Shown piece by piece: positions 26,298 through 50,237 of a DNA stretch of 64,000 nucleotides; positions within the stretch are counted from its first letter, which is position 1, and each line of letters opens with the position of its first letter. The DNA is taken from assembly GCA_023268155.1 (NCBI GenBank), contig JALNKM010000003.1, forward strand, positions 62,001-126,000, given 5' to 3'. The notes beneath the pieces are model-generated. The model was not told the DNA's origin. It saw only the letters and a program-made list of their open reading frames with translations, and did not search any database. The translations under genes and the position numbers were made by a program. The stretch is from Candidatus Geocrenenecus huangii (GTDB taxonomy: Archaea > Thermoproteota > Nitrososphaeria_A > Caldarchaeales > Wolframiiraptoraceae).

Positions 26298-26459
26298 CTT
26301 CCCTGTAAAAAGTTGTAGGCAGTAGGATTTATCTAAGAGAGAGTACGCTGAAAATGAATTAGACAACAGTATTCGCTAAGAAATACTTTGAAATGACTTG
26401 GAATCCCAGATAGAATAAAGTTAAACAAAAATACAGGCTTTACATAGAATATTCGTAGT

Positions 26460-26909
<450 letters not shown>

Positions 26910-27025
26910 CGGGCCCGGCGGGCTTTGAACCCGCGACCCCCGGGTTTCTTCAACTCTAGGTTAAAAGCTTCACCAGAAGCTTCCCAGCTTCTTCCGGTGC
27001 TCTATCCTGGCTGAGCTACGGGCCC
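26910..27025 (-). tRNA. tRNA-Lys (UUU) with two introns
   Basis: The 116-nt gene has acceptor GGGCCCG/CGGGCCC, D arm GCTC/GAGC and T arm GCGGG/CCCGC, but no normal anticodon arm unless two inserts are removed. Deleting 26969-26993 (25 nt, between positions 30 and 31, containing the hairpin AGAAGC/GCTTCT) and 26946-26961 (16 nt, canonical 37/38) restores CCGGG-CTTTTAA-CCCGG with anticodon TTT at 26963-26965 and a 75-nt mature tRNA. Splicing would need sequential action of an endonuclease tolerant of relaxed bulge-helix-bulge motifs. Confidence 0.85.
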
Positions 27026-27092: not shown

Positions 27093-27657
27093 ATGTCAAG
27101 AATCTTAGGATTATCTGGTTGAGGCTATTCGAAAAAATAGGGACTATAGTAAGTGTTTAGGGATGAACGTTATATCGTATAGCCCTCGAGCTAGACCTGA
27201 AGATGCTGCGAAAATAGGTGTCAAGCTCGTGTCACTGGAGGAACTCCTAAAAAACTCCGATATCATAGTGTTAACTACATCATACTCTCCTGAAAAGTAT
27301 CATTTAATAAACGAAGAAAGACTAAGAATCATGAAGAAGAATAGCTATTTAATAAATGTAGCACGAGGCGAGCTAATTGATGAAGAAGCATTAGCTAAAG
27401 CATTGCAGGAGAATTGGATAGCTGGAGCTGCATTAGATGTCATGGAGAAAGAACCTCCTTCACCCGATAATAAGCTATTACAGCTTGACAATATCGTCAT
27501 CACGCATCATACAGCATCTCATACACTAGAAGCTCTTAAGAATATGGGAGACATAGTTACTGAGAATATCCTTCTAGCCCTGGAAGGGAAAACACCAAAG
27601 AATATCGCTAACCCAGAAGTTCTCGAAAAGCCTAATCTTAGAATAAAAATAAGGTAG
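27093..27657 (+). pseudogene. Decaying D-2-hydroxyacid dehydrogenase
   Basis: From 27163 the frame encodes the NAD-binding half of a D-isomer-specific 2-hydroxyacid dehydrogenase: NVISYSPRA, SDIIVLTTSYSP, LINVARGELIDEEAL with the catalytic Arg, AALDVMEKEPP and the ITHHTASHT region with the active-site His. The N-terminal catalytic domain is gone. Just upstream, pieces of the Rossmann entry (ATG at 27093: RILGLSG, stop, GYSKK; then IGTIV; then SKCLGMNV) occur in three frames with stops, showing at least two indels. It is therefore a broken gene; expression of a 164-aa remnant is possible but unlikely to be active. Confidence 0.8.
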
Positions 27658-49535: not shown

Positions 49536-50237
49536 ATGAAGTTGAGGGTTATTAAAGGCTTATCCCATGAGTTTGATAGAATGAAGAGGGTTGTCGGGCT
49601 TGTAACGATGGACATGAAGTTTGCAAGCTTATTTAGAGAGTCAATGTCTAAAATGGGTGTAAAGACGATCCATACGCTAAGTACAGACGAGTTACCGTTC
49701 TCCGTGGATGTCGTGGTCACTAAGAAGGGAGAGCTTCGTGGAGAAATATCAAACCGAAAGATACTTTACTTAGAAGATTATCGAGACCTAGATGAACTTG
49801 CCGAGAAAGTCTTAGAGATATTGAAGGGCGTTGAATCGTATCGAAGCATATTGATAGGAATAGACCCTGGTAAGACTATTGGTGTAGCATTCTCTGTCAA
49901 CTATAAAATTATAAGGACTCTGAAATATTTTCATGAAGAGAAGATGATTGAAGATGTAAAAGCATTTATTGAAAGACATAGAGAGGCAGAAGAAAAAATC
50001 ATCGTGGTGGGCTCGACGACAACCGAGGGAGAATCATCGAGATTACAAAAAATCTTGACAAAACGACTTGGAGATATTGAGAGGTTGAAGATCGAATTTA
50101 TAGATGAATCTAGAACCACTAGAGGATTAGTTCCCAGAGAGAAAAATTTAAGCAAAGACGAATATTCAGCGATATTGTTATCGCTTAGGAGGTCTAGATT
50201 CAAGAAAGGTGGGAGTTTATGCCGGTACATCAATTAA
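49536..50237 (+). CDS. RuvX/YqgF-like RNase H-fold protein
   Basis: The 233-residue protein has about 100 N-terminal residues of unknown type, then a domain resembling YqgF/RuvX: IGIDPGKTIGVAFS (first catalytic Asp at residue 110), IEFIDESRTTRG (compare the family's D-E-R-x-T-T) and SKDEYSAILLSLRR (Asp/Glu before an A-x-x-L-L helix). YqgF proteins resolve junctions or process rRNA ends in bacteria. The gene overlaps the following Clp1-type kinase by 19 bp, pointing to RNA processing as a shared role. The ATG at 49536 follows a TATA-like CTTTTAAAG. The fold assignment is inference. Confidence 0.65.
   Translation: MKLRVIKGLSHEFDRMKRVVGLVTMDMKFASLFRESMSKMGVKTIHTLSTDELPFSVDVVVTKKGELRGEISNRKILYLEDYRDLDELAEKVLEILKGVESYRSILIGIDPGKTIGVAFSVNYKIIRTLKYFHEEKMIEDVKAFIERHREAEEKIIVVGSTTTEGESSRLQKILTKRLGDIERLKIEFIDESRTTRGLVPREKNLSKDEYSAILLSLRRSRFKKGGSLCRYIN

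Follow-up and report, generated by a model that had tools for sequence, protein, structure and literature searches.

A predicted tRNA-Lys(UUU) gene with two introns, one of them in the anticodon stem, in a genome of the Caldarchaeales

We analyzed a stretch of 64,000 nt (hereafter, the window) from Candidatus Geocrenenecus huangii, an archaeon of the hot-spring type. On the minus strand, at positions 26910–27025, the window carries a gene for tRNA-Lys(UUU) that is interrupted by two introns. The location coincides exactly with that of the original prediction, which had given no strand. The gene, delimited using RF00005 and intron enumeration, corresponds to a precursor of 116 nt and a mature tRNA of 75 nt. 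The unspliced gene matched RF00005 with 44.3 bits (cmscan, Rfam; gathering threshold 29), and ARAGORN did not report a tRNA-Lys(UUU) at 26910–27025. Exon 1 (26994–27025, minus strand; tRNA positions 1–30) is identical in two genomes of the same genus (G001 and G003). Exon 2 (26962–26968, minus strand; positions 31–37, GCUUUUA), identified by intron enumeration, contains the anticodon UUU at 26963–26965, and exon 3 (26910–26945, minus strand; positions 38–73) ends without an encoded CCA. Enumeration and folding placed an insert of 25 nt at site 30/31 and one of 16 nt at site 37/38, in agreement with the positions and lengths originally proposed. When both introns were removed, the remaining 75 nt, GGGCCCGUAGCUCAGCCAGGAUAGAGCACCGGGCUUUUAACCCGGGGGUCGCGGGUUCAAAGCCCGCCGGGCCCG, formed a perfect cloverleaf in which all stems were paired and which showed the conserved T, D and anticodon features of a functional archaeal tRNA. 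Its score of 52 in the intron-enumeration script was the joint best among the tRNAs of the genome. No intron-free cloverleaf was found for the locus under the rules of the script, with the tRNA class rules on.

The 5′ end of the gene adjoins an ORF of a D-2-hydroxyacid dehydrogenase (27163–27657, plus strand) that lacks the N-terminal part and is probably a remnant. At 26459–26554 of the plus strand (L036), ARAGORN reported a tRNA-Ser(CGA), which reads as tRNA-Gly(UCC) once a canonical intron of 20 nt is removed; a tRNA at this position, beside the GINS and MCM genes, is kept in three relatives. The Lys(UUU) gene of G001 lies in the same neighbourhood, with homologues of the transporter and the nitroreductase, and the spot is not identical. 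We considered a mobile-element attachment site at tRNA-Lys(UUU) and rejected it, as a search of the window found no duplicate of the 3′ end of the tRNA. The upstream regions of 42 tRNA genes of the genome showed no clear TATA or other archaeal promoter pattern relative to the gene start.

Intron 1 (AAGAAGCUGGGAAGCUUCUGGUGAA; 25 nt, 26969–26993, minus strand) lies at the non-canonical site 30/31, where it was placed by enumeration, folding and shuffling and where introns also occur in other genomes. Its bulge-helix-bulge motif has two bulges of 3 nt each, GG/A and AA/G, around a central helix of 4 bp, in which the exon nucleotides C25, A26, C27 and C28 (26996–26999, minus strand) pair with GGUG of the intron (26971–26974). 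The flanking helices are an outer one of 4 bp (21–24/32–35) and an inner one of 7 bp (26975–26992, minus strand; AGAAGCU/AGCUUCU with the loop GGGA), so that every element of the strict motif is present. None of 200,000 shuffles of the intron-1 bases equalled this motif. The first insert had been described as carrying its own hairpin of 6 bp; the hairpin is there, and its length is 7 bp.

The first four pairs of the inner helix covary in relatives. We compared 11 distinct sequences, anchored at the splice site and each read as a Lys tRNA, and counted 22 cells of the helix that were changed on both sides, compared with a shuffled mean of 5.9 (0 of 500 shuffles reached 22) and with 2–6 such cells in slid controls. 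Across these sequences 95.9% of the cells were paired, and the covariation score was 0.456, compared with 0.036–0.111 in the slid controls. The intron sequences are widely divergent between genomes and the helix is kept. The central helix of the motif is invariant because the exon is invariant.

Intron 2 (ACCUAGAGUUGAAGAA; 16 nt, 26946–26961, minus strand) was placed by enumeration and folding at the canonical site 37/38, which is also occupied in G001, G002, G003 and others; an A repeat leaves the edge of intron 2 uncertain by 1 nt. The motif consists of a central helix CUUU/GAAG, 4 bp including one G-U pair, without an inner helix at 37/38. It departs from the strict bulge-helix-bulge, in which a central helix of 4 bp between bulges is accompanied by an inner helix, and intron 2 is of the relaxed motif type. 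The assignment of intron 2 rests on the mature fold and the relatives, the motif by itself being weak (shuffle p = 0.066, not significant). Relaxed bulge-helix-bulge motifs require a splicing endonuclease of broad specificity (PMC6379350). The original prediction had taken the non-canonical site as the sign of relaxed specificity; the relation turned out to be reversed, since intron 1 has the textbook motif and the canonical intron 2 has the relaxed one.

We gathered Lys(UUU) genes from the order, which comprised 44 genomes, using a pattern search and BLAST. Both introns were present in the genome of the window (G000), G001 and G003, all of one genus. Five genomes had the 30/31 intron alone (G007, G010, G013, G019 and G037), and seven had the 37/38 intron alone (G002, G005, G006, G012, G014, G015 and G021). 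Neither was found in eight (G008, G009, G020, G024, G027, G029, G033 and G039), several of which belong to other genera (for example, G008, G009, G024, G029 and G033). As there are relatives with one intron or none, either intron can occur separately, with no change to the mature tRNA. The fold, the relatives and the covariation thus bear out the proposal of two introns, one of which lies within the anticodon stem. Further, a Lys tRNA was found with an intron in the D arm in G031 and G034. When 398 genomes sampled from the phylum were searched with the Lys-tRNA 30/31-intron pattern, 17 matched, and the reversed control gave single matches in two genomes; the matches in G100, G189, G206, G245 and G330 are unconfirmed as Lys tRNAs, and some may lie outside tRNAs. 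In G378, the Lys(UUU) and Lys(CUU) genes (L175 and L176) share nearly identical introns of 20 nt at 30/31, which is what the copying of an intron from one tRNA to a related one would be expected to produce. G016 has an odd tRNA-Lys(UUU)-like sequence (L100), in which the 3′ region of the anticodon stem is partly duplicated and an extra intron near 43/44 is possible.

The genome is a draft of 1.70 Mb in 21 contigs, with a completeness of 96.5%, and its MCM protein is 85–91% identical to those of Ca. Geocrenenecus arthurdayi, Aigarchaeota archaeon SKYB24 and 'Nitrososphaerales' archaeon KUA_Bin06; this assigns the genome to Caldarchaeales (Aigarchaeota), within or near the family Wolframiiraptoraceae. 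A second intact tRNA-Lys(UUU) gene, which would have suggested that the one in the window is a pseudogene, was not found; there is only one among the 42 tRNA genes that scored above the RF00005 cut-off. Given the draft state of the genome, a second could sit in a gap or, if heavily interrupted, evade RF00005. The AAA codon, which this tRNA reads, is common: six genes of the window use AAA 71 times and AAG 97 times. According to the intron-enumeration script, 25 of the 42 tRNA genes have introns (17 with none, 21 with one and four with two). The two-intron tRNAs are Lys(UUU), Gly(GCC), Leu(CAG) and Ser(CGA), the second introns of Leu(CAG) and Ser(CGA) being less certain. The tRNA-Lys(CUU) of the genome (L032) has an intron of 16–17 nt in the D arm near 24/25, a site known from the tRNA-Thr of Caldiarchaeum, and tRNA-Arg(UCU) is present as two identical genes on separate contigs. 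The tRNA-Trp, tRNA-Gln, Leu(UAA) and Leu(CAA) are absent from the 42 RF00005 matches; these tRNAs are probably too interrupted or lie within assembly gaps.

A search of the genome for a heteromeric splicing endonuclease, as the original prediction had advised, revealed two different EndA-family subunits, the only genes of this family, located outside the window on contigs C20 and C15. The alpha subunit (180 aa) matched the Aeropyrum pernix protein 3P1Z over nearly its full length (E = 7e-51). It retains GSDFAVY, EHAP and VRK, the conserved active-site blocks that contain the tyrosine, the histidine and the lysine, residues that we take to be the catalytic ones of the EndA family. The beta subunit (185 aa) lacks the histidine and lysine blocks. 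In alpha, K36-P37-K38 aligns with K44-P45-R46 of A. pernix, the crenarchaeal specificity loop, and keeps its order of Lys, then Pro or Val, then Lys or Arg; the role of K44-P45-R46 in the A. pernix enzyme has been described (PMC12397907), and the specificity loop is also treated in PMC6379350. With two different EndA subunits, one of them without the catalytic His and Lys, the genome is predicted to encode an (alpha-beta)2 arrangement, a type that cuts strict and relaxed motifs, in which alpha would assemble with beta. Compared with the (alpha-beta)2 endonuclease of A. pernix (PDB 3P1Z/3AJV), the alpha subunit, known here from its sequence, is alike including the lysine of the specificity loop, whereas the beta subunit is strongly diverged from its counterpart.

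From the sequence, fold, conservation, covariation and enzyme genes, we regard it as highly probable that the locus encodes a functional tRNA-Lys(UUU) with two bulge-helix-bulge introns that would be cut by the (alpha-beta)2-type endonuclease of the genome, after which the exons would be ligated. In the proposed pathway, the gene would be transcribed and the precursor cleaved by this enzyme, encoded elsewhere in the genome. The intron-1 motif would be built from exon nucleotides C25–C28 and GGUG of the intron; it would thereby occupy nucleotides 25–28, which are required to build the D and anticodon stems of the mature tRNA. The intron-2 motif would form around the anticodon stem 27–31/39–43 as the outer helix. 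Because both motifs compete for nucleotides 27–28, intron 1 probably leaves before intron 2, and once intron 1 is gone the anticodon stem and the intron-2 motif can form. In some archaeal tRNA genes, one intron must leave before the next motif forms (tRNAscan-SE 2.0; PMC8450103). The folding energies at 37°C (−37.3 vs −40.3 kcal/mol) are near equal and do not decide the order, and at 75°C the intron-1 motif is favoured, which is only suggestive of it.

We weighed this reading against the possibility that the locus is a decayed copy of a tRNA-Lys that has received two random insertions and that the real gene is located elsewhere. In its favour, the truncated 2-hydroxyacid dehydrogenase ORF beside the locus indicates a rearranged neighbourhood. 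However, the stems of the mature tRNA are all perfectly paired, the exons match those of G001 and G003, the intron-1 helix covaries and the genome yielded no further Lys(UUU) gene; we consider a pseudogene very improbable. Scarcely any credence is left for a gene in which one insert is an intron and the remainder is an unusual tRNA, for example one with a long variable arm. A near-equal one-intron alternative did appear (44.0 vs 46.5) when the scoring permitted long variable arms, but it demands a class-II variable arm in a tRNA-Lys. With the class rules on, the best single-intron fold that we could find was far worse (38.4 vs 52.0) and had the anticodon UAG in place of that for Lys. Further, the relatives that carry just one intron show that each is separately dispensable.

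An RNA role for intron 1, stable once excised, for example as a circular RNA, would fit its tight hairpin, in which a GNRA loop closes a stem of 7 bp. It is hardly to be expected, however, of an intron whose sequence diverges freely beyond the needs of the splice motif and which is missing from many relatives. The tRNA-Lys(UUU) gene of the window is thus best read as a genuine double-intron tRNA, neither a pseudogene nor a misfold, because its spliced form is a perfect cloverleaf, it is the only copy found, some relatives carry one or both of its introns and the intron-1 hairpin shows compensatory changes. As judged from these sequence data, it is very probably working in the cell.

Some Lys tRNAs outside the window are interrupted even more often. 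In G023, of the same order, the tRNA-Lys(UUU) in the region around 49569–49724 of G023:C4 (L183) is split by four introns, located at about 15/16, 30/31, 37/38 and 43/44 (22, 17, 15 and 27 nt, respectively), all of which carry a bulge-helix-bulge motif (shuffle p ≤ 0.0053 each). The spliced product of 75 nt differs from the mature tRNA of the window in the T arm only. A Lys(UUU) of G229 (L181), from another family of the phylum, also fits four introns. The Lys(UUU) of G026 (L184) and the Lys(CUU) of G023 (L186) and of G026 (L187) were each found to have three, located at 30/31, 37/38 and 43/44. RF00005 yielded only 28 matches in G023 and 28 in G026, several without an acceptor stem, and did not report the four-intron Lys(UUU) genes of G023 and G229. 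Such genes are therefore easily missed, and standard tRNA finders overlook them; the low counts suggest that numerous other tRNAs of G023 and G026 are highly interrupted. The literature puts the maximum at three introns per archaeal tRNA gene (PMC4033280, PMC8450103), and a literature search for a four-intron archaeal tRNA gave no case among the papers that it listed. Compared with that maximum, the predicted four-intron tRNA-Lys(UUU) in two related genomes is the most notable by-product of this analysis. It is likely that in this order and its relatives the Lys tRNAs form a hotspot for introns, with up to four per gene (G023; G229). Overlapping motifs, such as those of 30/31 and 37/38 in the window, would impose a set sequence in which the introns leave.

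Multi-intron tRNA genes are established in Thermoproteales (Sugahara 2007, 2008; reviewed in PMC4090602 and PMC4033280), and 30/31 is among the listed known intron sites (PMC4090602). The statement that they are known mainly from Thermoproteales is dated, since a two-intron tRNA of Caldiarchaeum was published in 2012 (PMC3293823) and Caldarchaeales are rich in them. The gene of the window resembles those of Thermoproteales in having several bulge-helix-bulge introns, with a non-canonical site beside the canonical 37/38. Unlike them, it comes from a different archaeal class (Caldarchaeales), and multi-intron genes are fewer here (4 of 42 found). The tRNA-Thr(GGU) of Caldiarchaeum subterraneum (PMC3293823) is alike in its two introns and belongs to the same order-level group (Aigarchaeota/Caldarchaeales); it is of another isotype, its introns are at 24/25 and 45/46, and a mobile element is present at its locus, whereas in the window the 3′ end of the tRNA was found only once. 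The tRNA-Trp(CCA) of A. pernix, again of another isotype, resembles the gene of the window in having an intron in the anticodon stem, at a distance of 31 bases from the 5′ end; its splicing was confirmed by cDNA (PMC4307357). In contrast, both Lys tRNAs of A. pernix have introns in the variable arm (PMC4307357). As multi-intron tRNAs are recorded in Aigarchaeota and Thermoproteales and site 30/31 is known, the gene of the window belongs to a type already described; it is one more well-supported double-intron tRNA in Caldarchaeales, and its value is comparative. The same tRNA occurs with no, either or both introns inside one genus and its family, and with three and four in related genomes; this series is a natural test set for the gain of archaeal tRNA introns, their copying between isoacceptors and their ordered removal.
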